Shown one piece after another: positions 5,746-20,574 of a stretch of 64,000 nt of DNA. This DNA is from Gillisia limnaea DSM 15749. GTDB lineage: Bacteria > Bacteroidota > Bacteroidia > Flavobacteriales > Flavobacteriaceae. Position 1 is the first letter of the stretch; every line of letters begins with the position of its first letter. The translations under genes and the position numbers were made by a program. The stretch spans positions 3,315,526-3,379,525 of the forward strand of contig NZ_JH594606.1 in assembly GCF_000243235.1 (NCBI RefSeq), in the 5' to 3' direction. The notes below the pieces were generated by a model, which saw only the letters and a list, made by a program, of their open reading frames with translations, was not told where the DNA came from and did no database searches.

Positions 5746-5898
5746 TTTATTGGTTTAGTTTAAAGAGTTATATTTAATTTAAAGAAACAGTCTTAGGTGT
5801 TAAATGGATTATATTTTCTTTGACTTATAATTTTCAGAATAATATAATCCATCTAAAAGGTAAGTTTATTAATTTACGTGTTTCTGAATTTATAGTTT

Positions 5899-7050: not shown

Positions 7051-7225
7051 ATGTGTTTTTTTATTATTCTTTAATTAGTCTCCCAATAGCTAGGGAGTGA
7101 TTTGCATATCTTCATAGGTGTTTGTATTGAATCCTTGTTATGCTCATTTCATAATTTAAAATTTATTGATTTTCTGCAATTTGATTTTTAACTAATAGTT
7201 CGATTTACTAATTCACATGTGCAAC

Positions 7226-7552
7226 TCATATTTTAACTGTATTAAATATTTCCTGTTGTTTCTGTAAATTTTCAATGAGCACCTCACGCATCAATTCACA
7301 GGCCTGTGCCACCTTGTTTGAACTAAGAGAAAAGTGACTGCATTGCCCATCTCGTCTAACATTAAGGATCCCCTTTTTGGTCATAACTTTTAAATGTTGG
7401 GAGAGATTGGATTTAAGTCCGCCAGTAATTTCAAGAATGTGGGCGAAACAATATTCCCTTTCCTTCAGTATATGGATTACCTCCATTCTTAAAGGATGTG
7501 CAAGTGCTTTGCATACTTCTGCCTGGAATTCGAATCTCCTTTTATGCTCCAT
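7226..7552 (-). CDS. ArsR/SmtB-family transcriptional regulator
   Basis: A 108-residue winged-helix repressor. The opening CKALAHPLRMEVIHIL and the recognition region GGLKSNLSQHLKVMTKKGIL (about residues 44-63), followed by the wing VRRDGQCSHFSL, are typical of ArsR proteins. Cysteines fall at positions 14, 35, 71 and 85. A pair of these could form a persulfide/tetrasulfide-sensing dithiol as in SqrR/BigR, but I have not aligned it and the spacing differs. It precedes the SQR-like gene and is divergent from the TauE gene, so a role as a sulfide/persulfide switch is plausible inference. Confidence 0.88.
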   Translation of the reverse strand: MEHKRRFEFQAEVCKALAHPLRMEVIHILKEREYCFAHILEITGGLKSNLSQHLKVMTKKGILNVRRDGQCSHFSLSSNKVAQACELMREVLIENLQKQQEIFNTVKI

Positions 7553-7932
7553 TGTTTACTTATTTAGTTGTTTATGAAATACTAAACATTGATTTATGGA
7601 TAATTTTTAATTTTAGCATTTCTAAATGTCAAAAGACAAAGAAAGGAGGAAATCGGCAGGAGATTTATGACTTTAATCATATATTCACAAATCAGGTTAT
7701 ATTTTTGTAATTTTATTGAAGCCATTACTTTTAATAAGCAATCCTATATAAGTATTATCCAATTTGTTTATCAACTTTTTATAACGGTCATAAAAATTGT
7801 GACTGGCTATAAGCAAATACATAAATTTGAAAAGGGTGTTAATTTTTGAAAATTAATTTGCTGTGTAACTATTGTTACTGTGTTGCCTGCATTAACAACC
7901 TACTTTTGCCAAAAAAAATATAAATCTTATAA
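7553..7932. other. 380-base divergent intergenic region
   Basis: This spacer lies between the ArsR gene (-) and the TauE gene (+). The right end carries the palindrome-plus-promoter unit described separately. The left and middle parts are AT-rich and I see no further gene or strong repeat. Confidence 0.6.
7865..7908 (+). promoter_or_regulatory. Sulfur-cluster promoter unit 1 (tauE)
   Basis: Palindrome GTAAC-TATT-GTTAC at 7865-7878, then exactly 22 bases, then TACTTTTG (a perfect TAnnTTTG -7 box) at 7901-7908. Transcription would start near 7913, placing the palindrome centre at about -41.5, with a leader of about 20 bases before the TauE ATG at 7933. The same unit occurs five more times in the cluster. 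Confidence 0.75.
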
Positions 7933-8730
7933 ATGGAAGTAATTGATCTTTTAGGTTATGCAGGCGCATTGATTATTGGGCTGGTTTTAGGTTTAATAGG
8001 TGGAGGTGGTTCTATACTTACGGTTCCCGTATTGGTTTATTTATTGATGATTAACCCGGTAACTGCTACAGCATATTCACTTTTTATTGTTGGGACTACC
8101 TCCCTGGTAGGAGCGTTCAAAAATATGCAGAAAAAGCTGGTAGATTTTAAAACTGCCGGGGTTTTTTCCATTCCTGCTTTTATCGCTGTTTACATAACAC
8201 GTATGTATATCGTGCCGGCAATCCCGGACCATATTTTCACGCTGTTTGGTTTTGAGGTGACCAAAAATATAGGGATAATGTTGTTTTTTGCTATTGTAAT
8301 GGTTGCAGCTTCCATTTCGATGATAAGGGAGAAAAAGAACAAGGTTGAAACTGAGGAAGAAATAAAATTCAATTATCCGCTCATTATTATAGAAGGAGTA
8401 GTAGTGGGGATATTAACAGGAATTGTGGGTGCAGGTGGTGGTTTTCTAATTATTCCGGCATTGGTTCTTCTGGCTAAACTCCCAATGAAAAAAGCGGTTG
8501 CCACTTCACTTTTGATCATTGCAGTTAAATCCTTGATCGGGTTTTTGGGCGATGTTCAAAATCTGGAAATAGACTGGATGTTTTTATTGATCTTTACCAC
8601 GCTCTCTGTAATAGGAATCTTTCTTGGGATCTATCTCAATAAATTTATAGATGGCAAAAAGTTAAAAAGGGTTTTTGGTTGGTTCGTGCTGGTAATGGGG
8701 ATCTATATAATCTGGAAAGAACTTTTCTAA
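7933..8730 (+). CDS. TauE/SafE-family sulfite/sulfonate exporter
   Basis: A 265-residue polytopic membrane protein. The family's two-fold repeat is visible: the first half opens with a GLIGGGGSILTVPVLVY segment (about residues 20-36), and the second half repeats this as GIVGAGGGFLIIPALVLL (about residues 162-179). TauE/SafE proteins export sulfite, sulfoacetate or related sulfur anions. Next to persulfide dioxygenases they are thought to remove the sulfite made by persulfide oxidation, as in the staphylococcal cst locus. It has its own palindrome-controlled promoter and is directly followed by a second copy of that promoter in front of the CstB-like gene. Confidence 0.9.
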   Translation: MEVIDLLGYAGALIIGLVLGLIGGGGSILTVPVLVYLLMINPVTATAYSLFIVGTTSLVGAFKNMQKKLVDFKTAGVFSIPAFIAVYITRMYIVPAIPDHIFTLFGFEVTKNIGIMLFFAIVMVAASISMIREKKNKVETEEEIKFNYPLIIIEGVVVGILTGIVGAGGGFLIIPALVLLAKLPMKKAVATSLLIIAVKSLIGFLGDVQNLEIDWMFLLIFTTLSVIGIFLGIYLNKFIDGKKLKRVFGWFVLVMGIYIIWKELF

Positions 8731-8741
8731 ATAAAGCCTTT

Positions 8742-8785
8742 GTAACTAATGTTACTGTAGATAAGCCATAATCATAGTATTTTTG
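8742..8785 (+). promoter_or_regulatory. Sulfur-cluster promoter unit 2 (CstB-like gene)
   Basis: Palindrome GTAAC-TAAT-GTTAC at 8742-8755, 22 bases, then the perfect -7 box TATTTTTG at 8778-8785. The predicted start near 8790 leaves a leader of about 150 bases before the ATG at 8944, which contains a structured dispersed repeat. Confidence 0.75.
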
Positions 8786-8807
8786 CAACTGAAATTAATT
8801 ACTTGAG

Positions 8808-8890
8808 AGCAAGCTCACAAGCTAGGTCACAGGAAGAAATATCCTGAATTTCGATAAAATCCCGACCGAAAGGGACGGGTAGACATCGGT
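8808..8890 (-). repeat. Dispersed structured repeat (family A), copy 1
   Basis: Read on the minus strand, this segment contains the ordered blocks CCCGTCCCTTTCGGTCGGG (imperfect hairpin), GGATTTTATCGAAATTC and CTTGTGAGCTTGC. The same blocks occur in the same order near 31.15 kb, and degenerate forms occur at 16.1, 33.4 and 35.1 kb. It lies within the untranslated leader of the CstB-like gene. Confidence 0.6.
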
Positions 8891-8943
8891 GAATTAAATG
8901 CACCAGTGGAATAAAAATTAAATTAACTTTAAAATAAATAAGT

Positions 8944-10338
8944 ATGTTTTTTCAACACGTATATGATAAAACCCTGGCACAGGCAAGCTATGTAATAGGA
9001 TGTCAAAAAACAGGAGAAGCTATTGTAATTGATGCTAAACGCGATATCGATACCTATTTGGATATTGCCAATCAAAACAACCTAAAGATCACTCATGTAG
9101 CCGAGACCCATATTCATGCCGACTTTCTTGCAGGTTCAAGGGAACTGGCGGCAGTAACAGGTGCCAAAATGTATCTTTCAGACGAAGGAGGTCTGGATTG
9201 GAATTACGAATTTGACCACATAGGTCTTAAGGATGGTGATTCTATTAAAGTAGGAAACCTAACGTTAGAAGTAATGCATACTCCCGGACACACTCCGGAG
9301 AGTATCAGTTTTCTTTTAATTGATAATCCGGCCACCAATGAACCAGTGATGGTATTTACAGGTGATTTTGTATTTGTAGGTGATATAGGGCGTCCGGATC
9401 TTTTGGAAAAGGCAGCGGGTTTAAAGGGCACTCAGGATAAAGGAGCTGAGGATATGTATACCTCGATAAAAAAATTCAGTAATTTACCTCCATATTTGCA
9501 GGTATGGCCCGGGCATGGTGCAGGTTCTGCCTGCGGAAAGTCCCTTGGGGCGGTACCAAGTAGTACGGTTGGTTATGAATTGATTCGTAACTGGGCATTT
9601 CAATATCAGGATAATAAAAAAGGTTTTGTGGAATATTTATTAGAAGGGCAGCCTGAGCCTCCTAAGTATTTCGCGATGATGAAAAAACTGAATAAGGTAG
9701 ATCGCCCGTTGCTTACTGAAGTTCCCAAGCATAAAAAACTATCTGTTTCCGAATTTAAATCGGCATACGATAAGGGTATTAAAGTGATTGATGCAAGGGA
9801 AAAAGAAGAATTTGCAAAAGGACATCTTCCAAATACAATTCATATTCAGGGAAACAATTCCTTCGCAACCTGGGCCGGTTGGTTTTTGAATTATGAAGAG
9901 TCTTTTATCCTTATAGCTTCAGATGAGCAAATGGAAGATCTTACCCGTAAATTAATGCGGATAGGGCTTGATAATATTCAGGGATATATTTCAGATATTG
10001 ATGCAATGGGAATTCCTCTTGAGAAAACAGAGGTTATTGCTATTGATGAGTTTAAAACCTACTTGGGTAAAGAGGATGTAGAGGTGATCGATGTTCGTGG
10101 AGCTTCAGAATATAAGGAAGCCCACATCAAGGGCACTAAAAATATTTTTGTCGGCACTATTCAAAATCATATCGATGAAATAGATACAGATAAGGAAGTT
10201 GTAATTCATTGCCAAAGTGGTGCCAGAGCTGCCATTGCGGAATCTATGTTAGCAAAACACGGAGTTAAAGATGTGAAAGTTTATTCCGGAGGAACCGAAG
10301 AATGGTTGGCGAAAGAGAATCCGGTTGTTTCTGAATAA
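8944..10338 (+). CDS. CstB-like persulfide dioxygenase with two rhodanese domains
   Basis: A 464-residue, three-part cytoplasmic protein. Residues 1-235 are a metallo-beta-lactamase domain of the persulfide dioxygenase (ETHE1/CstB) type, with the iron-ligand motif H56-x-H58-x-D60 (HIHADF) and the C-terminal PGHGAGSACGKSLG loop. Residues about 260-355 are a rhodanese fold without a catalytic cysteine (the loop reads ILIASDEQ). Residues about 365-464 are a complete rhodanese with Cys423 in HCQSGARA. This dioxygenase / pseudo-rhodanese / rhodanese order is that of staphylococcal CstB, which turns low-molecular-weight persulfides into thiosulfate. A TauE gene directly upstream and an SQR-like gene nearby reproduce the cst-locus content. 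I assign the reaction by family, not by direct evidence. Confidence 0.88.
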   Translation: MFFQHVYDKTLAQASYVIGCQKTGEAIVIDAKRDIDTYLDIANQNNLKITHVAETHIHADFLAGSRELAAVTGAKMYLSDEGGLDWNYEFDHIGLKDGDSIKVGNLTLEVMHTPGHTPESISFLLIDNPATNEPVMVFTGDFVFVGDIGRPDLLEKAAGLKGTQDKGAEDMYTSIKKFSNLPPYLQVWPGHGAGSACGKSLGAVPSSTVGYELIRNWAFQYQDNKKGFVEYLLEGQPEPPKYFAMMKKLNKVDRPLLTEVPKHKKLSVSEFKSAYDKGIKVIDAREKEEFAKGHLPNTIHIQGNNSFATWAGWFLNYEESFILIASDEQMEDLTRKLMRIGLDNIQGYISDIDAMGIPLEKTEVIAIDEFKTYLGKEDVEVIDVRGASEYKEAHIKGTKNIFVGTIQNHIDEIDTDKEVVIHCQSGARAAIAESMLAKHGVKDVKVYSGGTEEWLAKENPVVSE

Positions 10339-10349
10339 TTATAAAAGTA

Positions 10350-10378
10350 TGGACTCCCATTAAGTTACCGGGAGTCCA
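10350..10378 (+). terminator. Hairpin between the CstB-like and rhodanese genes
   Basis: Perfect nine-base arms TGGACTCCC (10350-10358) and GGGAGTCCA (10370-10378) are followed by TTAAT and A-rich DNA rather than a long T run. It may be a partial terminator or a processing signal within the operon, because the rhodanese ATG follows at 10397. Confidence 0.55.
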
Positions 10379-10396
10379 TTAATAAAAATAGCATAT

Positions 10397-10708
10397 ATGA
10401 AAAATATAAAACAGGACGAGTGGAGAAAATTAGTAGCAGAAGATAAGGATGCTGTAATTATCGACGTGAGAACCCGGGAAGAATTTGAGTCGGGATATCT
10501 TGAAACTGCTCAACTTATAGATATTATGCAGCCACAAACTTTTATGGATGCAGTGAGCAAATTACCTAAAGATAAAAATTATTATATGTATTGCCGTAGC
10601 GGCAACAGGAGCGGACAGGCTTGCCAGATTCTGGATGCCCGGGGATTTGAAAACACCTACAATCTTGAAGGCGGTATGCTGGAGTGGAATGGAGAAATAA
10701 AGCAATAA
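10397..10708 (+). CDS. Single-domain rhodanese sulfurtransferase
   Basis: A 103-residue cytoplasmic rhodanese. It shows the entry motif VIIDVRTREEFESGYL (residues 20-35) and the active-site loop YCRSGNRSG with Cys66, closing with the usual LEGGMLEWNG. Single-domain rhodaneses carry sulfane sulfur as a cysteine persulfide. Its position after the CstB-like dioxygenase suggests persulfide supply to, or from, that enzyme. There is no signal peptide, unlike the second small rhodanese of the cluster. It is probably cotranscribed with the CstB-like gene unless the intervening hairpin stops transcription. Confidence 0.92.
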   Translation: MKNIKQDEWRKLVAEDKDAVIIDVRTREEFESGYLETAQLIDIMQPQTFMDAVSKLPKDKNYYMYCRSGNRSGQACQILDARGFENTYNLEGGMLEWNGEIKQ

Positions 10709-11050
10709 AGAGTTTTAAAATCTATTTGGTTGATTATAAAGGGAGTCATCGTAAAGAAGACTTCCTTTATTTGATTTAAAAATTATTCAGTTAAACATAG
10801 ATAATTTCTTTACATCCAGATCCAGCCTTTTATGATTTGTTTTTTATTCAAGTTGAATTAGATCTTCAAAAAAGCATGTTTTAATAGTAAACTTGCTTTA
10901 GATGCTATATCGTTGTAGTGTAACAATTGTTACTAAGAATGATAAACAAACTCAATACTTTAGGAAAAAATAACCGTTCGCTCTGGCAATAAAAAAATCA
11001 TTTATTTTAAGGATAATATTTCGGGAATTGTTATTATAAGGAGGATATCA
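10709..11050. other. 342-base intergenic region
   Basis: The left end holds an imperfect hairpin (arms 10738-10747 and 10759-10768, AAAGGGAGTC against GACTTCCTTT with G-T pairs) that may terminate the rhodanese transcript. The right half carries promoter unit 3 and an unusually strong Shine-Dalgarno, AAGGAGG at 11038-11044, ahead of the TsdA-like ATG at 11051. The part between is AT-rich without a gene. Confidence 0.6.
10920..10963 (+). promoter_or_regulatory. Sulfur-cluster promoter unit 3 (tsdA-like operon)
   Basis: Palindrome GTAAC-AATT-GTTAC at 10920-10933 (the most symmetric copy, two-fold symmetric over all 14 bases), 22 bases, then TACTTTAG at 10956-10963, one mismatch from TAnnTTTG. 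Predicted start near 10968, leader about 80 bases. Confidence 0.7.
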
Positions 11051-12082
11051 ATGGAGAGGTTTAAAAAAATCATCAAGTCGCTGTATTTTTTATTTGGGAC
11101 TATTCTTATTTTAGTAGTGGTGCTTTTTTCGGTATTGCTCTATTATAATTCCAACCCTGATTATTTTTTGGTGGATAAGGCAGATCATGAGTTTTGGACA
11201 CCAAAAGATATCTTAAATGATCCTTTAAAAAATTTCATCGATCCGGAAGTCCAGTATGGATTTCTCCTGGTGTCGGAATCCCCTTCTCAAATGGGGCCCC
11301 AATCTCCCGATGCATCTATGAGGTATGCGGGTAATAATTTGAAATGTACCAATTGTCATTTAAAAAACGGTACTCAGGCCGGTTCGGGATCCTGGGTGGG
11401 CGTTACCAATCGTTTTCCACAATTTGGTGCCCGTGGCAATAAAATTGGGACCATAGAAGATAGGGTGAATGGCTGTTTGGAGCGGAGTATGAATGGGAAA
11501 AAAATGCCGGTTGATTCAAAACCTATGAAGGCCATTGTAGCTTATATGGAATGGCTTGGCGAAGATATCCCTAAAGACAAAGAAGAGGAATATAAGGGAT
11601 TCCCTTCTATAAAACTACCAGATGTAGCTGCAAATGTTAATATAGGAAAGGAAGTTTATAATAGCCAGTGCATGGTTTGTCATAGTGAAAACGGAGAAGG
11701 ACAGCGCGCTGCAGATTTAGCACAGGGATATCTCTACCCGCCTTTATGGGGGAAAGATAGTTATAACCATGGGGCGGGAATGCATAGAGTGATTACTGCT
11801 GCCGAGTTTATTAAAGGAAATATGCCTTTTGGAGAAGCTACCTGGGATAATCCAAAATTAACCGATGAAGAAGCCTATCATGTTGCGGCTTACATCAATA
11901 GTTTTGAGCGGCCTTTAAAATCTTTGGCGGAAAATGATTTCCCTGATAAAAAGCTTAAACCTGTCTCCACACCTTACGGCCCCTGGGAGGATAGTTTCTC
12001 TGAAGAGCAGCATAAATATGGACCATTTCCTCCAATAATTGAATTTTATAATAGAAAATATTCTATTGTAAAAACCAAATAG
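11051..12082 (+). CDS. tsdA: Membrane-anchored dihaem cytochrome c, thiosulfate dehydrogenase TsdA-like
   Basis: A 343-residue protein with one uncleaved N-terminal membrane helix (about residues 11-31) and two c-type haem sites: C99-TN-C102-H103 and C207-MV-C210-H211. The segment RVNGCLERSMNGKKMP places Cys142 where TsdA and SoxA use a cysteine as distal ligand of the catalytic haem, which supports TsdA identity over a generic cytochrome. Met258 (KGNMPFGEA) is a candidate distal ligand of the second haem. TsdA oxidises two thiosulfates to tetrathionate, or the reverse, in the periplasm. Anchoring instead of secretion is a variation. It has its own promoter unit and strong ribosome-binding site and leads the rhodanese lipoprotein and TlpA genes. 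Confidence 0.85.
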   Translation: MERFKKIIKSLYFLFGTILILVVVLFSVLLYYNSNPDYFLVDKADHEFWTPKDILNDPLKNFIDPEVQYGFLLVSESPSQMGPQSPDASMRYAGNNLKCTNCHLKNGTQAGSGSWVGVTNRFPQFGARGNKIGTIEDRVNGCLERSMNGKKMPVDSKPMKAIVAYMEWLGEDIPKDKEEEYKGFPSIKLPDVAANVNIGKEVYNSQCMVCHSENGEGQRAADLAQGYLYPPLWGKDSYNHGAGMHRVITAAEFIKGNMPFGEATWDNPKLTDEEAYHVAAYINSFERPLKSLAENDFPDKKLKPVSTPYGPWEDSFSEEQHKYGPFPPIIEFYNRKYSIVKTK

Positions 12083-12124
12083 CAATTTCGGTTTGATAAA
12101 AAAATAACCAGTTATTACATATCA

Positions 12125-12619
12125 ATGATTCCTATGAAATACTTCTCACAATATTTTTTAACAACTCTACTATTTCTTTCGGTTTCCTGTAAACAAAATA
12201 CAACCAATCAGCCTTCAGAAAAAGATAAAAATAATGGAGAAAACCTTGAGTTGTCTTCGAAAACTGATTGTAATTATCTAAGTAGCATTTCAAAAGAAAA
12301 TGGCCAGAACCTGACGGCTTTAGAAGTAAGAGATCTGATACGTGAAAATCCAGGCTTAATTATTATAGACGTGAGGACACCAGAAGAATTTGAATTAGGA
12401 AGTGTTGAAAATGCCATTAATATTGATATTTATAACCAGAATTTTTTACTGGATATCAAAGAATTGAGGATGGATAAAAAATATTTGCTCTATTGTGCTG
12501 TGGGAGGCAGAAGTTCTGCAGCTTCAGAATTGATGGAAAATGAAGGTTTTACAGGTGTTTTTAATTCTATTAATGGCTTTGCAAGCCTAAAAGAGGTGGG
12601 AATAACTATAAAAAAATAA
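12125..12619 (+). CDS. Rhodanese-domain lipoprotein
   Basis: A 164-residue protein with a lipoprotein signal peptide ending in the lipobox LSVSC (Cys22; an alternative ATG at 12134 would shorten the start by three residues). After a hydrophilic linker comes a complete rhodanese domain (about residues 62-160) with the opening LIIIDVRTPEEFELG and the catalytic Cys124 in LLYCAVGGRSS. It would sit in the cell envelope, probably facing the periplasm, where it could accept or donate sulfane sulfur beside the TsdA-like cytochrome encoded 42 bases upstream. This envelope rhodanese is distinct from the cytoplasmic one at 10.4 kb. Confidence 0.88.
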   Translation: MIPMKYFSQYFLTTLLFLSVSCKQNTTNQPSEKDKNNGENLELSSKTDCNYLSSISKENGQNLTALEVRDLIRENPGLIIIDVRTPEEFELGSVENAINIDIYNQNFLLDIKELRMDKKYLLYCAVGGRSSAASELMENEGFTGVFNSINGFASLKEVGITIKK

Positions 12620-12719
12620 CGCTCGTTTATTATAACGGGTTATTTATAAAGCAAGTTTTTTTTATGTGCTGAATAAGGTTGACTGCAAATTTGAATTCAA
12701 CAGTTTAATTTAAGAGATA

Positions 12720-13313
12720 ATGAATAAAAAGACCAAAAAAAATATAATTGAATACGGGATAATAGGGGTGGTAATACTCACTCTTTTTGCAACAGGATTG
12801 CATACAGAGGTCATTGGTTTTCTTCAAAGGGGGATCTTAAAAACCGGATTGATGGATCCGGATTTAAAAGATACTAACGGGTTTACCAATAAGAAAAACA
12901 ATCCTCCCGCCGATTATAGCTTGAGCCTTGTAAATTCAAAAGACGAAAAAATCAATATGGAAGATTTTCGGGGGAAAGTTATTTTTATGAATGTATGGGC
13001 AACCTGGTGTCCGCCTTGTGTGGCGGAAATGCCGGGAATTAATAATCTTTATAATGATGTCAAAAATGAAGACATTGTTTTTATAATGCTTTCGGTAGAT
13101 CAGGATTTTCAGAAAGCAATCGATTTTAACGAAAAAAAAGGGTTTGATTTTGAGGTTTTCAGAGCTTCGGGTCCAATGCCTCCACAATATAACTCTCAGA
13201 GCCTTCCTACCACCTTTGTTATAGGTGCAGATGGAACCCTCGCACTCACCCATATGGGAATGGGAGATTATGACACCGAAGAGTTTAAAGAATTTTTAAA
13301 GGCATTGAAATAA
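12720..13313 (+). CDS. TlpA-family membrane-anchored thiol:disulfide oxidoreductase
   Basis: A 197-residue protein with an N-terminal membrane helix (about residues 10-28) and a TlpA/ResA-type thioredoxin domain. The active site W-C97-PP-C100 is within NVWATWCPPC and the cis-proline loop is SLPTTFVIG. Such proteins reduce disulfides or apo-cytochrome haem-binding cysteines in the periplasm. Next to a dihaem cytochrome and periplasmic sulfur carriers, either cytochrome maturation or reduction of carrier-bound sulfur is plausible. It is the last gene before a bidirectional terminator and probably belongs to the TsdA-like operon. Confidence 0.9.
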   Translation: MNKKTKKNIIEYGIIGVVILTLFATGLHTEVIGFLQRGILKTGLMDPDLKDTNGFTNKKNNPPADYSLSLVNSKDEKINMEDFRGKVIFMNVWATWCPPCVAEMPGINNLYNDVKNEDIVFIMLSVDQDFQKAIDFNEKKGFDFEVFRASGPMPPQYNSQSLPTTFVIGADGTLALTHMGMGDYDTEEFKEFLKALK

Positions 13314-13495
13314 TTGTTATGTCAGGCTTCCCGAAGATTTTAGATGCCGGAACCCACTATTATTTTGAGAGATCCATAAAGGGATAAACACCCGAATCTC
13401 ACAGCAGTTTAGTCCCATTTTAAGGAGATTCAAAAGAACTACCACGTTTATTCGTGGCTAATAAATAAATCATTACTCTCTTTATACTAATAGAA

Positions 13496-13528
13496 AAGCC
13501 CTGTAAAGTTTAAAACTTAACAGGGCTT
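13496..13528. terminator. Bidirectional terminator
   Basis: Perfect arms AAGCCCTGT (13496-13504) and ACAGGGCTT (13520-13528), with an inner AAGTTT/AAACTT pairing, lie between the convergent TlpA (+) and SoxB-like (-) genes. Confidence 0.8.
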
Positions 13529-13560
13529 ATTACTTGAGGAAAATGTTATGTTTCCATGTT

Positions 13561-15213
13561 TTACTGAAACTTATAATTTGTCCCGGGTACCGTAGAGAAA
13601 GAATACTGGCCTAAATAATCGCAATAGGCTCTTCCTTCCAGTTTAGGAGACACCGGGGAGTTCACTTTTAAGTATTCTTCCACAACATCGTGAATGGTAT
13701 AATCTTTTACTTCTACATCTTTCACTCCGGGAATACGACATAAATTGTCTTCAGGATCACCGGGACGAACACAGGCAGAAATGGTATAATACTTATCATC
13801 CTGCATTTCTTCGCCTTTCACGATAACAGAGTTTACGCGCTCTCCTTTTGGAGCCTGACTGTTAAAGTCTACTTCCATCCCGGAGAAACGTACCAACCAA
13901 CCACCAAATCGTTCGGTGGAATTTTGGGCAAAGGCATTGTGCATTTCCCGCTCCAACCAATCTTTAATTTGTTTTCCGGTAACTTTTCCTGTTTTTACTT
14001 TTTCATTAACCGGAAGTAAATTCCATAAATTAGCGCGCGTAATGGGGGCCGGTTTTCCATTTACCGGAACTATAGGATTTCCAAATCGAAATCCGTTTGA
14101 GATAGCGATATCTGCACCGGTTTTCCAGCGGGCAGCATCGGTGATCATATTATCCATTGGATTTTCAACGGTTAAATAGCGATAAATGGGAGTATTGGTG
14201 TAACCAACAATAGCTTCCAGGTGCTCTTTATAAGGCGCTTTTGCTTGATCTATAAGTCCCTGGATCTTTGGATTCGCAACATATCTCTCAGGATCTACAT
14301 CCATTAGCTCATAATCGTCTTTTACAATTTCACCATTTACAAAATACAGGTTTAATTTGCCTACAAAAGATCCAAAAGCTCCCGGTTCTGTTACTTTTGC
14401 ATATTTTCCTTCGATGGGTTGACGCACCCTTTCGTGGGTATCATTTCCCAAAATGTAATCTACATCTTTAGATATTTCACTATTGGCAAGTTCCACTTGC
14501 TTAAAAATTCCCATATGGGTTACGAGGAAGAGTGCATTTACTTTTTTTTCATTTTTAACCTCATCAATAAGTTTCAGGACATTGTCATCCAACCCGCTAA
14601 AGGTCATTCCCTCGCTAAAGATCGGGTTTTGACGAATTGGAACATCCGGATCATTAACCCCAATAAATCCTATTTTCACTCCTTCTATCTCCTTGATCCA
14701 ATAGGGAGGGAAAAGCCGCTCTTCGGATTCCTCGTGATACATGTTCTCTGCAATTACAGGAGTATCATAGGCGTTTAAAACATTCATCATCGAAGCTTTG
14801 CCGTAAACCACTTCCCAATTACCGGGAATAAGCAAATCGTAATTCATATTTTTCACAATCTCGGGAAAAATATCTCCTTTGGAAAGGGCTGCATATCCAC
14901 TTCCCTGAATAAGATCGCCACCATCTACAATAATGGTTCGGTTAGGGTTTTTAGCACGTTCTTCCTCAAACAAGGTTTTAATGTTTGCCATCCCGCCGCG
15001 GGTTTTGAATACAATGCTGTCATTTTCCCAAAACAATTCTGGATGTGGATCTAATTGACCGTGAATATCGGCAGTTTGCAAAATGGTGATCCGCAAGGTA
15101 TCCTGGCCATTATCCCCTTGTTTTTCACCTGATTTCATGTCTTGACAGGATCCTAGTAGTGTAAGTCCAAAAATCCCCAATCCTATAAACAATGCTGTTT
15201 TAAGTGTTTTCAT
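13561..15213 (-). CDS. SoxB-like metallophosphatase-fold lipoprotein (5'-nucleotidase/thiosulfohydrolase family)
   Basis: A 550-residue lipoprotein (lipobox LLGSC, Cys23) with a two-domain 5'-nucleotidase fold. Metal-site motifs are in order: TADIHGQL, VDGGDLIQGSG, PGNWEVVYG, THMGIFKQ and LGNDTHERV. The usual nucleotidase signature GNHE is replaced by GNWE; a histidine-to-tryptophan change at this spot is the mark of SoxB, the thiosulfohydrolase that removes sulfate from SoxYZ-bound thiosulfate. SoxB is normally Tat-exported and soluble, so a lipidated form is unusual. No SoxYZ, SoxXA or SoxCD gene is in the window. The upstream genes in the same direction are dsrE and doxX, 13 bases and about 440 bases away. 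A nucleotidase role remains possible. Confidence 0.8.
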   Translation of the reverse strand: MKTLKTALFIGLGIFGLTLLGSCQDMKSGEKQGDNGQDTLRITILQTADIHGQLDPHPELFWENDSIVFKTRGGMANIKTLFEEERAKNPNRTIIVDGGDLIQGSGYAALSKGDIFPEIVKNMNYDLLIPGNWEVVYGKASMMNVLNAYDTPVIAENMYHEESEERLFPPYWIKEIEGVKIGFIGVNDPDVPIRQNPIFSEGMTFSGLDDNVLKLIDEVKNEKKVNALFLVTHMGIFKQVELANSEISKDVDYILGNDTHERVRQPIEGKYAKVTEPGAFGSFVGKLNLYFVNGEIVKDDYELMDVDPERYVANPKIQGLIDQAKAPYKEHLEAIVGYTNTPIYRYLTVENPMDNMITDAARWKTGADIAISNGFRFGNPIVPVNGKPAPITRANLWNLLPVNEKVKTGKVTGKQIKDWLEREMHNAFAQNSTERFGGWLVRFSGMEVDFNSQAPKGERVNSVIVKGEEMQDDKYYTISACVRPGDPEDNLCRIPGVKDVEVKDYTIHDVVEEYLKVNSPVSPKLEGRAYCDYLGQYSFSTVPGTNYKFQ

Positions 15214-15226
15214 CTGTTTTATTTTT

Positions 15227-15652
15227 CTAAAGTCCTAAACTGTAATATCCTTTTTTCTGAAGCTGAAAATCGTGTAAAATACCATTTTCAACTATTTCCA
15301 TTTCCTGTGGAATCTCTTTGCGATCAACCTTGAATTTATTCAGGGAAAATCCGCAGGCTACCAGATGTACTCCTGCTTTTTCAGCTTGAGCAACAAAGTC
15401 TTTCATCTTATCGGCATCGGTTAATTGTGAAATGTCCTGCCCGCAAACAATGACCTGAAAATCCCCAAACCGCTCTCCGTCCTCCAGCGCTAGTGCTTCA
15501 GCGGTAAGTAGTATAGGTTTTAACTGATCTACTTTCTTAGTTAGCACAACATAATTGTTCTTATCATGAGTGTGTTCTTGTACCTGTGCATTAACCTGTA
15601 TGGTGGTTAAAGCAAAAAATAATGCAAGGCTGCTTAAAAATACTGTTTTCAT
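15227..15652 (-). CDS. Periplasmic DsrE-family sulfur-carrier-like protein
   Basis: A 141-residue protein with a cleavable signal peptide (about residues 1-22, ending VNAQ) and a DsrE/F-like domain. Two cysteines are embedded in conserved-looking strands, VIVCGQDI and VACGFSL; the second is in the position of the sulfur-carrying cysteine of DsrE/TusD-type proteins (inferred, not aligned). Most DsrE proteins are cytoplasmic, so export suggests a periplasmic sulfur shuttle. It overlaps the doxX stop by four bases (ATGA) and ends 13 bases before the SoxB-like gene, a tight doxX-dsrE-soxB unit. Confidence 0.85.
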   Translation of the reverse strand: MKTVFLSSLALFFALTTIQVNAQVQEHTHDKNNYVVLTKKVDQLKPILLTAEALALEDGERFGDFQVIVCGQDISQLTDADKMKDFVAQAEKAGVHLVACGFSLNKFKVDRKEIPQEMEIVENGILHDFQLQKKGYYSLGL

Positions 15653-16047
15653 TGTTTTGTTGTTTTAAAATCGTTTAATATAAAAAATAGGAGTCCGCCC
15701 ATAATTGCTATATTCTTAAAAAGCGGCCCCAGGGAATTCACCTGTCCTACCTGAACAGTAATTGTAATTGGAATTAATATCAATGCCAGAATTGCAGCAG
15801 CCCACTGGGTTTTAAAACCGGCGAGAAGACCAATCCCGGCAGCCAGCATGATTATTCCAGAGATAATAATAAGGTATTCGGGATTCCCAATAAAATAGGC
15901 CATGCTTTTAAAACTGGCCTGATCCAGTTTGGCAACAGTTTCTTTCAAATTCATCAAATGATTGAAACCTGCCACAAGGAAAATTCCGCTTAACATCATT
16001 CGGAATATATGAACTGATCGTTGTGTAACCATTATTTTGGCTGTCAT
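15649..16047 (-). CDS. DoxX-family membrane protein
   Basis: A 132-residue protein with four predicted membrane helices. The pattern FRMMLSGIFLVAGFNHLMN near the start and GIIMLAAGIGLLAGFKTQWAA in the middle match the DoxX/DoxD-like family. DoxD subunits belong to archaeal thiosulfate:quinone oxidoreductase, and the wider family is often found near sulfur and redox genes, but many members have no known reaction. Translation is coupled to dsrE by a four-base overlap. The 254-base gap to the next upstream gene holds a stable hairpin repeat. Confidence 0.8.
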   Translation of the reverse strand: MTAKIMVTQRSVHIFRMMLSGIFLVAGFNHLMNLKETVAKLDQASFKSMAYFIGNPEYLIIISGIIMLAAGIGLLAGFKTQWAAAILALILIPITITVQVGQVNSLGPLFKNIAIMGGLLFFILNDFKTTKQ

Positions 16048-16080
16048 AAGCTATAATAGATTTATTAATTTTCACCAAAT

Positions 16081-16201
16081 TCCGGTGCCTATCCCGTTCG
16101 GGTAGGATTTTATCAAAATTGTGGGAATTTCTTCCTTTTAAAATTCCCCGTGAGCCCGCCCGTACCGTTCGGGCGGGCTTGCTCCGAGGTTCTTGATTCA
16201 T
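16081..16201 (+). repeat. Dispersed structured repeat (family A), copy 2
   Basis: It contains the hairpin CCTATCCC/GGGTAGG, then GGATTTTATCAAAATT, then a very stable stem with ten-base arms AGCCCGCCCG (16153-16162) and CGGGCGGGCT (16170-16179) around a TACCGTT loop. The order of blocks matches copy 1 (inverted) and the copy at 31.15 kb. The GC-rich stem with the same loop recurs at 35.1 kb. It lies between doxX and the gene upstream of it. Confidence 0.65.
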
Positions 16202-16301
16202 TTTTTCTGAAAGATTTTGATCATTGCAAAAAAAAATCAGTGAACCGGCAACTGCTTTCTGTGTTATGTAAAGAAAACTGCTGATTAAATTAAAGTGTCT
16301 A

Positions 16302-16658
16302 TTAAACTTGTGGGGGAGGATAAAACTTATCTCTGAAGGTTTCAAAAAATTCTGGAGATGTATAATTGTAGCCCTGATAATTGGTTTTCACCTCGGGAAG
16401 TGTCCACCCGAATAACTGGAACTGAAATGGAGCGTTACAATATGAATCTATAGGGATGATTAAAACTTTGGAAGCAGGGATAAGGTCCTGAGTACTTCCA
16501 TTCTCAAATACATCGGCGGTCTTATTATCACAAAATGGATTTATATATACCATTTCTTCGGCATCAAGAATGCTTACCAGAAATTTGGTATCTATCATCA
16601 GGGATTTTCCGAAAAAAACCACCGTAAAGAATATGGCTATATAAGACTTTAAGTTCAT
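16302..16658 (-). CDS. Unknown small membrane-anchored protein, sulfur-regulon member
   Basis: I choose ATG at 16658 (118 residues). An in-frame ATG at 16682 exists but lies upstream of a perfect -7 promoter box at 16666-16673, so it should not be transcribed. The start MNLKSYIAIFFTVVFFG is a membrane anchor or signal. The body has two cysteines (NPFCDNK and DSYCNAP) and a proline-rich tail ending FYPPPQV. I do not recognise a function. With the chosen start the messenger RNA would have almost no leader. It is driven by promoter unit 4 and may carry doxX-dsrE-soxB along, though a hairpin repeat intervenes. Confidence 0.7.
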   Translation of the reverse strand: MNLKSYIAIFFTVVFFGKSLMIDTKFLVSILDAEEMVYINPFCDNKTADVFENGSTQDLIPASKVLIIPIDSYCNAPFQFQLFGWTLPEVKTNYQGYNYTSPEFFETFRDKFYPPPQV

Positions 16659-16665
16659 TCGACGC

Positions 16666-16709
16666 CAAATATAGGTATTCATAGCTGCTTTGAATGTGAC
16701 ATTTGTTAC
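16666..16709 (-). promoter_or_regulatory. Sulfur-cluster promoter unit 4 (minus strand)
   Basis: On the minus strand: palindrome GTAAC-AAAT-GTCAC (16709-16696, one mismatched half), exactly 22 bases, then the perfect -7 box TATATTTG (16673-16666). Predicted start near 16661, three bases before the ATG at 16658. It is back to back with unit 5, the two palindromes being 40 bases apart. Confidence 0.72.
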
Positions 16710-16749
16710 ATAGCGCTTAAGTTCATTTTAGAATTTCTTTTTAGGGAGC

Positions 16750-16793
16750 GTAACACTTGTTACAGATATTAAGAAGCCTTTTATAGAGTTTTG
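16750..16793 (+). promoter_or_regulatory. Sulfur-cluster promoter unit 5 (porin)
   Basis: Palindrome GTAAC-ACTT-GTTAC at 16750-16763, 22 bases, then GAGTTTTG at 16786-16793: the TTTG half is exact, the TA half is not. Predicted start near 16798, leader about 24 bases to the porin ATG at 16822. Confidence 0.65.
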
Positions 16794-16821
16794 CAAAAAA
16801 AAAGTCTTTAAAAAATATATA

Positions 16822-18195
16822 ATGAATTTAGTTAAGTGGTATTTTACAATTATATGGTTAAGTTTTAATTTCACCATTTATGCACAGGAACACGATGAAT
16901 CCGGGAATAAGGAAATTTCACAATTGAAGAATGTCTTCCGCGATGCTTCTTTTCATGGGCATTTTAGAAATTATTTTATGAATACCATAAACCGGGGTGA
17001 TCTAAAGGATTATTATACCAATGCTACAGGAGGTGCTGTGGGATTTACAACTGGAAATTACAAGGGTTTTGAAATTGGTGTAAAAGGTATTTTTACTTAC
17101 AAAACCTTCGGCAGTGACCTTGGGGTAGAAGATCCTATTACCGGAAAAAACGCAAAATGGGAATATGAGCTTTATGATGTTTTGAATAAGGGGAATTTCA
17201 AGGATCTCGATCGGTTGGAGGAGTTATTTATCCGGTACCGTTTTGGAGACTCCTATATCTCCTACGGAAAGATTGAAACAGAATACACTCCTTTGCTTAA
17301 CCATAGCGACGGCCGTATGAAGCCTTTTGCACATCGTGGAGCCTGGGCACATTTAAATTTCGACCCTTCCCACCAGGTTAACCTTGGTTGGTTAAACGGG
17401 GTTTCCCCAAGAGCTACTACTGAGTGGTTTAACTTTGAAGAAGGGATGGGACTTTTTTATAATGGTTTTCAACCCAATGGGCACTTAGCAGAATATCATG
17501 AATTTTACCCTTCCTCCGGGATTGGGATCTTTAATTACAGTTTCAAAAAAAACAATCTCCATTTAGAGATATATGATTTTTATTTGGACAAGATGATGAA
17601 TACACTTTGGACAGAAGTAGGATATAACATTAACAGCATTAACTTTGGAGTTCAATATGTGTATCAGTCCCCATTTTCCTATTCTGAAAAGCTTTCTTAT
17701 GAAAACAGGTATATACAACCCGATGAAAATGGACAGGTATTAAGCACTCAATTAAGTTGGAAACAGGCAGGCTGGAAATTGGGTTTTGCGTATTCCCATG
17801 CATTTGACACGGGAAGGTTTTTATTTCCGAAGGAATTAGGAAGGGATCATTTTTTCACATCCATTTCCAGATCACGTATGGAAGGACTTGGAAATACAGA
17901 TGTTTTTATCCTGAAGGGGGAGTATACCATCCAAAAACCGGAAGTTCATCTGGGGTTGGAAATTCAGAAACTTACAGGTCCTGAAACGGCTGTTTTTGAG
18001 TTCAATAAATATAATGTAGCGGAATCTTTTCAGTTAAATGCACATTTAACTTATAAAGTACATGGCTTCCTGGAAGGCCTAAGCTTCGATTTTCTTTGGG
18101 TTTATCGGGAAAATAAAAATAGTTTAGATGCTCAAAGCATATTTAATAAAAGTAATTTTAATCAACTTAACTTAGTTACTAATTTCGATTTTTAG
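16822..18195 (+). CDS. Outer-membrane porin, OprD-like
   Basis: A 457-residue outer-membrane beta-barrel with a signal peptide (cleavage likely after IYAQ, residue 22). Alternating strands rich in aromatic residues and a C-terminal phenylalanine (VTNFDF) fit a barrel. The pattern of the first strands (HGHFRNYFMNT, then TGNYKGFEIGVKGIFTYK) and of KIETEYTPLLNHSDGRM resembles OprD-family substrate-specific porins. The substrate is not evident. Control by the same promoter layout as thiosulfate and persulfide genes suggests entry of a sulfur anion. The MFS gene starts 16 bases after its stop, so they are probably cotranscribed. Confidence 0.72.
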   Translation: MNLVKWYFTIIWLSFNFTIYAQEHDESGNKEISQLKNVFRDASFHGHFRNYFMNTINRGDLKDYYTNATGGAVGFTTGNYKGFEIGVKGIFTYKTFGSDLGVEDPITGKNAKWEYELYDVLNKGNFKDLDRLEELFIRYRFGDSYISYGKIETEYTPLLNHSDGRMKPFAHRGAWAHLNFDPSHQVNLGWLNGVSPRATTEWFNFEEGMGLFYNGFQPNGHLAEYHEFYPSSGIGIFNYSFKKNNLHLEIYDFYLDKMMNTLWTEVGYNINSINFGVQYVYQSPFSYSEKLSYENRYIQPDENGQVLSTQLSWKQAGWKLGFAYSHAFDTGRFLFPKELGRDHFFTSISRSRMEGLGNTDVFILKGEYTIQKPEVHLGLEIQKLTGPETAVFEFNKYNVAESFQLNAHLTYKVHGFLEGLSFDFLWVYRENKNSLDAQSIFNKSNFNQLNLVTNFDF

Positions 18196-18211
18196 ATAAT
18201 TTGAAACTTCT

Positions 18212-19444
18212 ATGGATTCTGTAAAATTAGGCTTAAAGGAAAACTGGAAACAATTCAGTCTGCTAGTGCTGGTCAATGCTTTTGTTGGTGGAATGGTAGG
18301 CTTAGAGCGTAGCATTATTCCAGAATTGGCTACCAAAGAGTTTGGTGTTGAAGCTACTACTGCGATCCTTTCTTTTATTGTAGTATTTGGGGTGGTGAAG
18401 GCGATTTCCAATTATTATGCGGGTGCTTTAGCCAATAAATTTGGAAGAAAAAATCTTCTGGTCCTTGGGTGGATCTTCGCTATTCCAATTCCTTTTATAC
18501 TAATCTATGCTGAAAACTGGGACTGGATTATAGTGGCCAATGTTTTTCTGGGCATTAACCAGGGACTTGCATGGTCCAGCACGGTGGTGATGAAAATTGA
18601 TCTGGTTGGGGAAAAACAGCGTGGATTTGCGATGGGGCTTAATGAGTTCGCCGGATATCTGGCAGTAGCGGTGGTCGCATTTCTTACAGGGTGGATCGCT
18701 TCAGAATACGGCCTGAGACCTTATCCTTTTTACCTTGGAATTGGATTGATGATTCTGGGCTTATTCTTCAGTATTTTTCTGATAAAGGATACCAGGCATC
18801 ATGTGACCAAAGAAGAGGGTTTTAGCACTGTTTCAAAATTGAAGAACATCTTCTGGGAAACAACATGGAAAGATAAGAACCTGGGATCTGTAAGCCAGGC
18901 CGGACTTATAAATAACCTCAATGACGGGATGGCCTGGGGATTATTTCCAATTTTGTTGGCTGGGAAAGGTTTTAATCTGGAACAAATTGGAATCGTAACC
19001 GCATTGTACCCTGCAGTTTGGGGGATGGGACAGATTATTACCGGAAAAATGGCCGATAAATTCAGCAAAAAGGATATGCTGGTCACGGGAATGCTTTTGC
19101 AGGCTATTGTTTTGGTTGTCCTTATTTGGGCCGAAACTATGACACATTTTGTGATCCTTTCCTCCATGCTTGGCTGGGGAACAGCGATGGTTTATCCCAC
19201 ATTTCTAGCCAGTATTGCAGAAAACACCCACCCACAGGACCGGGCAAAAAGCATTGGTGTTTTTAGGCTTTGGAGGGATTTGGGGTATGCAATAGGAGCT
19301 ATTTTAACCGGGGTTATAACAGACCTTGTAAGCATTGATGCTTCTATTTTACTGGTAGGTTTACTTACTTTTATTTCTGCTGGGATAATTTTCTTCCGAA
19401 TGAAATATAAAACCGATGGAGCTGTTCGGTTTTTGAAATTATAA
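18212..19444 (+). CDS. Major facilitator superfamily transporter
   Basis: A 410-residue protein with about twelve membrane helices. The MFS signature in loop 2-3 reads ALANKFGRKNLLVLGW (about residues 69-84), with its second-half counterpart KMADKFSKKDMLVTG (about residues 279-293). The substrate is unknown. It follows the porin gene after 16 bases and precedes the yeeE pair, so import or export of a sulfur compound is an inference from context only. Confidence 0.88.
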   Translation: MDSVKLGLKENWKQFSLLVLVNAFVGGMVGLERSIIPELATKEFGVEATTAILSFIVVFGVVKAISNYYAGALANKFGRKNLLVLGWIFAIPIPFILIYAENWDWIIVANVFLGINQGLAWSSTVVMKIDLVGEKQRGFAMGLNEFAGYLAVAVVAFLTGWIASEYGLRPYPFYLGIGLMILGLFFSIFLIKDTRHHVTKEEGFSTVSKLKNIFWETTWKDKNLGSVSQAGLINNLNDGMAWGLFPILLAGKGFNLEQIGIVTALYPAVWGMGQIITGKMADKFSKKDMLVTGMLLQAIVLVVLIWAETMTHFVILSSMLGWGTAMVYPTFLASIAENTHPQDRAKSIGVFRLWRDLGYAIGAILTGVITDLVSIDASILLVGLLTFISAGIIFFRMKYKTDGAVRFLKL

Positions 19445-19532
19445 TAATCAGCTCTTTTTTAAGTGTTTCAATATGATTATTAACTCGTTTGAAACAAAAT
19501 TTACCTTTGCGAAAGCTTGAAAAAATAACAAT

Positions 19533-19576
19533 GTAACTTTTGTTACTGTAGGAATTAATATTAAATGAGTTCTTTG
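19533..19576 (+). promoter_or_regulatory. Sulfur-cluster promoter unit 6 (yeeE pair)
   Basis: Palindrome GTAAC-TTTT-GTTAC at 19533-19546, 22 bases, then GTTCTTTG at 19569-19576 with the TTTG half intact. Predicted start near 19581, leader about 18 bases to the ATG at 19599. Confidence 0.62.
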
Positions 19577-19598: not shown

Positions 19599-20156
19599 AT
19601 GAATTGGATATTTGAACCCTGGCCCTGGTATGTTGCGGGGCCGTTAATTGCCTTAATAATGTTTTTACTGCTATTTGTGGATAAACAATTTGGAATGTCT
19701 TCAAATTTAAGAACCATGTGTGCCATTGGAGGCGCAGGTAAGCAAGCCGATTTTTTCGCTTTCGACTGGAAATCTCAGCGATGGAACCTGGTTGTCGTTT
19801 TAGGAGCAATAATTGGCGGATTTCTGGGTGCTCATTTATTAACTAACGACCCCTCTGTGGCGATTAACCCTGAAACTATAGCAACTTTGGAAGGCCTGGG
19901 TTTTGAAAATGCAGGAGACACCTATTTGCCTGAGCAGTTATTTGGTTTGGAAGCATTTTCCAGCATTAAATCTTTATTGATTTTGTTAGGCGGAGGATTG
20001 CTCATAGGCTTTGGTTCCAGATATGCCGGAGGCTGTACTTCCGGACACGCTATTTCTGGCCTTAGCAATTTACAATTGCCCTCACTTATAGCGGTAATTG
20101 GTTTTTTTATTGGTGGGTTGGTTATGATCCATCTTTTATTTCCTTTAATTTTTTAA
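19599..20156 (+). CDS. YeeE/YedE-family transporter, first half
   Basis: A 185-residue membrane protein of the YeeE/YedE (thiosulfate transporter TsuA-related) family. The family's conserved cysteine motif is seen as RYAGGCTSGHAISGLSN near residues 142-158. In TsuA, cysteines along the channel pass thiosulfate inward. Here the transporter is split into two short proteins; this is the GGCTSGH half. The second half starts immediately after its stop, so both are made from one message under promoter unit 6. Confidence 0.9.
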   Translation: MNWIFEPWPWYVAGPLIALIMFLLLFVDKQFGMSSNLRTMCAIGGAGKQADFFAFDWKSQRWNLVVVLGAIIGGFLGAHLLTNDPSVAINPETIATLEGLGFENAGDTYLPEQLFGLEAFSSIKSLLILLGGGLLIGFGSRYAGGCTSGHAISGLSNLQLPSLIAVIGFFIGGLVMIHLLFPLIF

Positions 20157-20157
20157 G

Positions 20158-20574
20158 ATGAGAAGAACAATAGCATATTTATTTATAGGTATATTTTTTG
20201 GGATAGTGATGTACAAGTCGGAAGCGGCTTCCTGGTTTAGAATTTATGAAATGTTTCAGTTTCAATCCTTCCATATGTATGGGATCATAGGATCTGCATT
20301 ATTCCTGGGAGTACTGGGCGTATTGCTTATCAAAAAGAATAATGTAAAATCCTTTTATGGAGAGCCTATCAAGTTTAATCCAAAGGATAAAAGTTTTAGC
20401 AGGTATATGTATGGAGGGATCATTTTTGGTCTTGGCTGGGCACTTGCCGGGTCTTGTCCCGGACCCATTTATACGCTTATTGGTGCAGGATACGTCTCTA
20501 TTTTAGTAGTTTTAGTGGGTGCCCTGGGTGGTACATTTATCTATGGCCTAATCCGGAAGAAATTACCACATTAG
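20158..20574 (+). CDS. YeeE/YedE-family transporter, second half (DUF6691-like)
   Basis: A 138-residue membrane protein with four hydrophobic segments. It contains the partner cysteine motif of the family, LGWALAGSCPGPIYTLIGAG (about residues 97-116). Together with the preceding gene it makes up the equivalent of a full-length YeeE-type thiosulfate channel. Its ATG lies one base after the stop of the first half, so translation is coupled. It is the last gene of the sulfur cluster and ends at a strong hairpin. Confidence 0.9.
   Translation: MRRTIAYLFIGIFFGIVMYKSEAASWFRIYEMFQFQSFHMYGIIGSALFLGVLGVLLIKKNNVKSFYGEPIKFNPKDKSFSRYMYGGIIFGLGWALAGSCPGPIYTLIGAGYVSILVVLVGALGGTFIYGLIRKKLPH

Follow-up and report, generated by a model that had tools for sequence, protein, structure and literature searches.

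The window analysed here is a stretch of 64,000 nucleotides of Gillisia limnaea DSM 15749 (contig NZ_JH594606.1, positions 3,315,526 to 3,379,525 of the forward strand), and our subject is a set of six short palindromes that lie in it among genes of sulfur metabolism. A first-pass annotation had described them as copies of GTAAC-N4-GTTAC, each followed after 22 bases by an octamer at the -7 position of a promoter. On rechecking site by site, the minus-strand site included, the six coordinates, the exact 22-base gap and the six octamers were all as described. Five of the palindromes are perfect and the minus-strand one (16696-16709) has one mismatch. In window positions, the sites and their boxes are:

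7865..7878, plus strand: site 1, GTAACTATTGTTAC
7901..7908, plus strand: -7 box of site 1, TACTTTTG
8742..8755, plus strand: site 2, GTAACTAATGTTAC
8778..8785, plus strand: -7 box of site 2, TATTTTTG
10920..10933, plus strand: site 3, GTAACAATTGTTAC
10956..10963, plus strand: -7 box of site 3, TACTTTAG, with 5 of 6 consensus bases
16696..16709, minus strand: site 4, GTAACAAATGTCAC, with one mismatch
16666..16673, minus strand: -7 box of site 4, TATATTTG, 7 nucleotides from the proposed ATG
16750..16763, plus strand: site 5, GTAACACTTGTTAC
16786..16793, plus strand: -7 box of site 5, GAGTTTTG
19533..19546, plus strand: site 6, GTAACTTTTGTTAC
19569..19576, plus strand: -7 box of site 6, GTTCTTTG

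Against these 5 perfect sites, 100 second-order Markov simulations gave an expectation of 0.010 per 64 kb. The claim that the window holds no further copy stands at zero mismatches; at one mismatch the motif also occurs at 6377, inside an SQR-like gene, and at 30716, and with two mismatches allowed the 21 matches are at chance level (17.2 in shuffles). Over the whole genome (3.97 Mb) the perfect palindrome was found at 8 places and its reversed control at 9, so its count alone was dismissed as evidence. Seven of the 8 places are clustered within 61 kb, and 7 of the 8 have the octamer at +22, the exception, at 2368055, sitting inside an open frame.

A genome scan for the palindrome and box together (the composite) gave 4 matches with no mismatch, 3 with one and 4 with two; allowing up to three gave 48 matches against 80 for the control, and the three-mismatch composites were discarded as background. 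The composite at 3314862, immediately to the left of the window, repeats site 1 (7865) letter for letter and is not independent, because it is carried in an identical direct repeat: positions 5562-8428 of the window recur exactly, over 2,867 bp, at C2:3312559-3315425, the copies being 8,528 bp apart. This repeat, which arose either through a recent duplication or through an error of assembly, contains an SQR-like gene, an ArsR gene, site 1 and the beginning of tauE. Further composites were found at 3248864 (minus strand), with a DUF302 gene 34 bases downstream, and, with two mismatches, at 552582, 270 bases before the gene of a Pyr_redox_2 protein that is SQR-like by eye (L055:6583-8979); behind this second SQR-like gene are DsrC- and DsrE-like genes. 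Another two-mismatch composite, at 659647 (L029), was put down to chance; it overlaps the beginning of an unrelated open reading frame (ORF) of regulator-like type.

The composite in related genomes and its target genes

We scanned 149 genomes of the family (Flavobacteriaceae), that of G. limnaea included, for the composite at any spacing from 14 to 30, using the reversed motif as control. It is present in 102 of the 149, with 238 matches against 31 for the control, and among the 150 matches listed the spacing is 22 in 126, 21 in 12, 23 in 6 and some other value in 6. The first gene behind the site was then surveyed for 30 family sites, one per genome (24 by Pfam and 6 by eye; second genes by eye). 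Plainly sulfur-related genes stand first behind 19 of them, encoding TauE (7), metallo-beta-lactamase (MBL)-rhodanese proteins (4), a multi-rhodanese protein (1), SulP (3), the small-protein heads of DoxX/DsrE-type operons (3) and the YgaP-type head of a YeeE-type operon (1). The remaining first genes are TolC-type (7, discussed below) or encode FadL-type, porin O/P, cytochrome bd subunit I and thioredoxin proteins (1 each). The cytochrome bd subunit I gene, behind the site of locus L081, fits a sulfur regulon because bd oxidases tolerate sulfide. Equal frequency in front of unrelated genes, which the first-pass annotation had named as the outcome that would speak against a regulon, was not seen in the scan of this genome and its relatives that it had proposed. 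Over 247 genomes of the class, the composite occurs in 64, with 103 matches against 57 for the control and a spacing of 22 in 59 of the 103.

In the window itself, the genes around the sites are:

7933..8730, plus strand: TauE/SafE-type exporter (PF01925)
8944..10338, plus strand: metallo-beta-lactamase with two rhodanese stretches (Pfam), which we take to be of the persulfide dioxygenase-rhodanese type
10397..10708, plus strand: rhodanese (Pfam)
11051..12082, plus strand: SoxA/TsdA-type cytochrome c (PF21342, PF00034)
12125..12619, plus strand: rhodanese (Pfam)
12720..13313, plus strand: thioredoxin-like protein (Redoxin/AhpC-TSA; Pfam)
13561..15213, minus strand: SoxB/5'-nucleotidase-like protein, last gene of the minus-strand group (249.7 bits on the SoxB model, cut-off 550)
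15227..15652, minus strand: DsrE-like protein, weak (23.4 and 21.7 bits, slightly below the Pfam cut-offs)
15649..16047, minus strand: DoxX-type membrane protein (PF07681)
16302..16658, minus strand: small protein without Pfam match, start proposed at 16658 (longest ORF 16302-16682)
16822..18195, plus strand: protein without Pfam match (ORF)
18212..19444, plus strand: major facilitator superfamily transporter (Pfam)
19599..20156, plus strand: part of a YeeE/TsuA-type sulfur transporter (PF04143; 36.9 bits on the TsuA model, cut-off 400)
20158..20574, plus strand: second YeeE-type part (DUF6691/PF04143)

For the small minus-strand protein a start at 16658, in frame and 24 nucleotides inside the longest ORF, is more likely than the first ATG, because the -7 box of site 4 falls downstream of the latter. 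The gap from box to ATG would then be 7 nucleotides, compared with 6 in the relative locus L064. By eye, the gene is similar, in its start and in its place within the operon, to those that head the DoxX/DsrE operons of L064 and L086.

A CRP/FNR protein linked to the sites

Six HTH_Crp_2 matches in the genome exceed the cut-off and a seventh is weak; none of them falls in the window, which bears out the earlier remark that no CRP/FNR gene is present there. One of the proteins encoded outside the window, of 221 amino acids (C2:2023767-2024429), is our candidate regulator; it carries the recognition helix TSRVVISR and the motif GDTCAMTLSCC. Domain matches to PF00027 (35.0 bits, cut-off 27.5) and PF13545 (35.1 bits, cut-off 27), together with a predicted structure (mean predicted local distance difference test score 90.7; Foldseek E 1.9e-14 to 4ev0, with top matches of CRP, HcpR and NtcA types), place it in the CRP/FNR superfamily, with a predicted beta-roll of the type that binds cyclic nucleoside monophosphates and a Crp-type helix-turn-helix.

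Homologues of this protein at E<=1e-20 are found in 126 of the 149 family genomes. With orthologues defined by E<1e-50, 117 genomes have one and 32 do not, and the composite is present in 99 of the 117 against 3 of the 32 (Fisher 2e-15). The regulator gene is also physically linked to the motif: of 30 orthologue loci, 23 have a perfect palindrome whose first base lies -3 to +105 bases from the last base of the regulator, and in 21 of the 30 the gene next to it encodes, by eye, TauE.

A further collection of 80 named loci, mostly from flavobacteria, the nearest being Gillisia and Salegentibacter, yielded the regulator ORF in 79 (L350 was dropped). Because the peptide pattern used to gather these loci prescribes the helix, helix conservation among them is no evidence; they and the other locus sets may share genomes with those scanned and are not strictly independent. 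A palindrome lies within -10 to +150 of the regulator end in 48 of the 79. When every 5-4-5 palindrome that has its box at 21-23 was counted, ties between spacings being broken towards 22, GTAAC was found in 58 of these loci and the runners-up in 2 each, and 56 of 59 full boxes were at spacing 22. In 51 other loci not classed as Glu-type (see below), scanned with the same rule for ties, GTAAC was found in 36 and the runner-up in 3; in 8 Glu loci, the same scan found GTAAC in 0.

Base specificity and the cysteine motif

Positions 180 and 181 of CRP have been related to the operator (Rodionov et al. 2005, PMC1274295), HcpR2 having the motif GTAACnnnnGTTAC and mostly Pro at 181. We classed loci from across the class by residue 181; of 89 loci, 78 could be assigned (42 Val-type, 36 Glu-type), and 11 with ORFs that departed from the helix pattern were left out. 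Counting a palindrome as present anywhere in the 1.5-3.7 kb fetched for each locus, GTAAC occurs in 18 of the 42 Val-type and 0 of the 36 Glu-type loci, and GTGAC in 0 of the 42 and 4 of the 36, the four belonging to four different families. On those 22 loci the split of residue and operator (18:0 vs 0:4) has a Fisher probability of 1.4e-4, and in an unbiased scan of palindromes, ties between spacings again going to 22, the top rank went to GTAAC for Val-type and to GTGAC for Glu-type loci. No GTGAC had been found beside the first eight Glu-type loci; it appeared with more loci and the genome search. In this search, the predicted composite with GTGAC-N4-GTCAC gave one match each in 5 of 11 Glu-type genomes and 0 for the control, at spacings of 22, 22, 21, 21 and 23, and the next gene, by eye, encodes TauE in 4 and rhodanese in 1. 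This result offers what we would call strong but not fully controlled support for a reading code.

Linkage, co-occurrence and the covariation of residue and base thus support the protein of C2:2023767-2024429 as the regulator of the sites, and with it the CRP/FNR-type regulon that had been proposed from the form of the palindrome.

The second feature of this protein is its cysteines. Cys88, Cys94 and Cys95 form the sole Cys columns of 30 family orthologues and are invariant in all 30. In a class alignment of 40 of the 58 sequences found, they are kept in 40, 38 and 38 rows, and the motif C-x5-CC is present in 35 of the 42 Val-type and 21 of the 36 Glu-type class loci. In the predicted model residues 91-96, which include Cys94 and Cys95, form a short helix with Cys88 just ahead, and an alignment with Vfr, judged by eye, suggests that the motif occupies the place of the CRP-type phosphate-binding cassette. 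Since persulfide and thiosulfate targets accompany the motif, a thiol sensor of reactive sulfur is its likeliest reading, ahead of metal, heme or disulfide sensing.

Promoter architecture, alternatives and meaning

In F. psychrophilum the flavobacterial -7 box spans -12 to -5 (PMC9723704). This published position plus the 22 bases puts the centre of the palindrome at -41.5, and the class II placement proposed at first pass is supported by the box position and the near-fixed spacing in the family. We regard it as highly probable that all six sites serve as class II operators in a single regulon for sulfur oxidation and detoxification under the CRP/FNR activator of C2:2023767-2024429. A -33 element would occupy the region around a site at -41.5.

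We envisage that a dimer of this activator, encoded elsewhere in the genome, would bind the six sites, with the recognition helix TSRVVISR reading each GTAAC half-site. The palindrome, at about -41.5 and in the place of the -33 element, would help to bring sigma-A RNA polymerase to the -7 box, which lies 22 bases further along. Cys88, Cys94 and Cys95, in the predicted region of the ligand pocket, may sense persulfide, polysulfide or related reactive sulfur species, and the activated targets would serve export (TauE), uptake or trafficking (YeeE, SulP), persulfide oxidation (MBL-rhodanese) and the handling of thiosulfate (SoxA/TsdA-like cytochrome). A broader and more tentative proposal, to which we would give somewhat less than an even chance, is that the nucleotide pocket has been rebuilt into a C-x5-CC sensor of persulfide or sulfane sulfur, which governs a class II sulfur regulon in this family and, beyond it, in further families of the class and which switches between GTAAC and GTGAC by Val or Glu.

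Several observations weigh against these readings. Among target genes, TolC-type outer-membrane genes stand behind 7 of the 30 family sites (L058 and L063 by Pfam; L059, L061, L071, L075 and L083 by eye); the cargo of these proteins may be sulfur compounds. In G. limnaea itself a perfect composite at 3274063 precedes a fatty-acid-hydroxylase-type gene (PF04116; L002:1501-2495). A similar gene is second behind the site of L074, after tauE, which suggests that genes of this type may belong to the regulon too. The enrichment is weaker beyond the family (96 matches vs 56 for the control), and 9 of the 96 are in one genome, G262; these nine GTAAC composites, most of which have identical sequence and a spacing of 15, seem to be a repeated element in several copies and not promoters. 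As for the regulator, the perfect composite is missing in 18 of the 117 genomes with an orthologue and present in 3 of the 32 without a close one; no perfect palindrome lies behind the regulator in 7 of the 30 orthologue loci, that of G. limnaea among them, or in 31 of the 79 named loci. In G111 (locus L089), the other Gillisia genome of the set, the regulator does have a linked site. With respect to the specificity switch, all five GTGAC composites are in one genus, which supplies 7 of the 11 genomes, the search covered the Glu-type genomes alone, and the GTAAC composite occurs in the genomes of 8 of the 36 Glu-type loci (7 genomes) against 25 of the 42 Val-type. Finally, C-x5-CC is missing in 7 Val-type and 15 Glu-type class loci, and because of these 22 in 78 we have lowered our confidence in the rebuilt pocket.

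We infer that the regulator activates rather than represses, because the near-constant spacing argues for contact with the polymerase. Repression by the same protein from -41.5, relieved by sulfur compounds, is unlikely in our view: a site there could block the polymerase and several known sulfane-sulfur sensors are repressors, but a repressor would tolerate more positions than the nearly constant 22-base spacing, which suits an activator touching the polymerase, and NtcA activates from an identical layout (PMC3898017).

The other alternatives concern the identity of the protein, and each is very improbable. That HcpR2 controls the sites as part of a nitrosative-stress regulon is suggested by its published consensus, which is identical to ours (PMC1274295), and by the fourth rank of P. 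gingivalis HcpR in the Foldseek search; we rejected it since hcp (PF03063) is nearly absent from the family, occurring in 1 of 149 genomes as a 48-residue frame, the genes downstream of the sites are largely sulfur genes, and residue 181, mostly Pro in the HcpR2 proteins of that paper, is Val or Glu in all 78 classed loci. Binding by one of the genome's other CRP/FNR paralogues (L016, or L017 or L019) has equally little to recommend it. L017 and L019 also lack Glu at 181 (helices RAVINR and RAVVNS), but homologues of L017 are in 17 of the 149 genomes, with the composite in 15 of the 17 against 87 of the other 132 (p=0.09); those of L016 are in 47, at most 36% identical outside its own genome among the matches listed, and their trend is in the wrong direction (composite in 27 of 47 vs 75 of 102, p=0.06). 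This distribution, compared for L016 and L017, led us to reject both, and L014 and L015 keep Glu in the helix. Lastly, an ArsR-type protein (7226-7552, minus strand) acting as a BigR/SqrR-like sulfur repressor with the palindrome as its operator, which the position of its gene beside site 1 and the SQR-like gene and the sulfide and persulfide repressors of its family (PMC12423496, PMC9774250) might suggest, scores 44.6 bits on the BigR model (cut-off 155) and as a general regulator is largely refuted by being found at E<=1e-15 in its own genome only (1 of 149), against 102 of 149 for the composite. This gene, without a relative at that threshold in the 148 other family genomes, was perhaps acquired.

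Compared with systems already described, the CRP/FNR regulon proposed here shares features with several and differs from each. The CRP/FNR activator resembles E. coli CRP, which uses a class II layout at -41.5 and the site TGTGA-N6-TCACA, in fold and domains, and differs from it in its score on the CRP model (64.4 bits, cut-off 266) and in the Cys motif that would stand at the phosphate-binding cassette. The cluster cysteines of the [4Fe-4S] FNR type are absent, Cys 88, 94 and 95 being the only ones in the 30 orthologues. NtcA is a CRP-family activator of cyanobacteria, with 2-oxoglutarate as ligand and a nitrogen regulon. Its site, GTAN8TAC, is centred at about -41.5 and at ilvG lies 22 nucleotides from the -10 box (PMC3898017); the sites described here share its outer bases, 14-bp length, centre and gap. 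The helices align as TSRVVISRLL here and STRVTVTRLL in NtcA, with R-V-x3-R in common. Set apart from NtcA are the regulator, with 44.1 bits on the NtcA model (cut-off 244.95), the largely sulfur-related targets, the Cys motif, the full GTAAC half-site and the Bacteroidota -7 box. HcpR2, which controls hcp, shares the consensus, the CRP/FNR family and the logic of positions 180 and 181, and in a few cases has Ser or Gln at 181 together with other motifs (PMC1274295, which also quotes a Desulfovibrio CRP-like motif); unlike HcpR2, our system shows no co-occurrence with hcp and no Pro at 181. The sulfane-sulfur sensors of ArsR type (SqrR, BigR, YgaV) and MarR type are similar in likely inducer class and target functions and differ in protein family, several of them being reported as repressors.

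The first-pass annotation's suggestion that such a regulon is undescribed in flavobacteria therefore needs qualifying: the motif has been published for HcpR2 upstream of hcp (PMC1274295) and the promoter geometry for NtcA, so both are already known. The literature searched, in part among best-ranked matches only, yielded no account of the sulfur regulon, of its regulator, of a Cys motif at this place in the predicted ligand pocket or of the Val/Glu switch, and none of how flavobacteria control thiosulfate or persulfide handling, in a search that covered few subscription papers. Flavobacteria are widespread in the sea, in soil and in freshwater, and the present analysis offers for them a testable regulator, operator and target list, a rule by which relatives can be searched for the regulon, and a candidate natural switch of specificity. 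If the cysteines are the sensor, the CRP/FNR fold would join ArsR, MarR and the other folds reported to sense sulfane sulfur.

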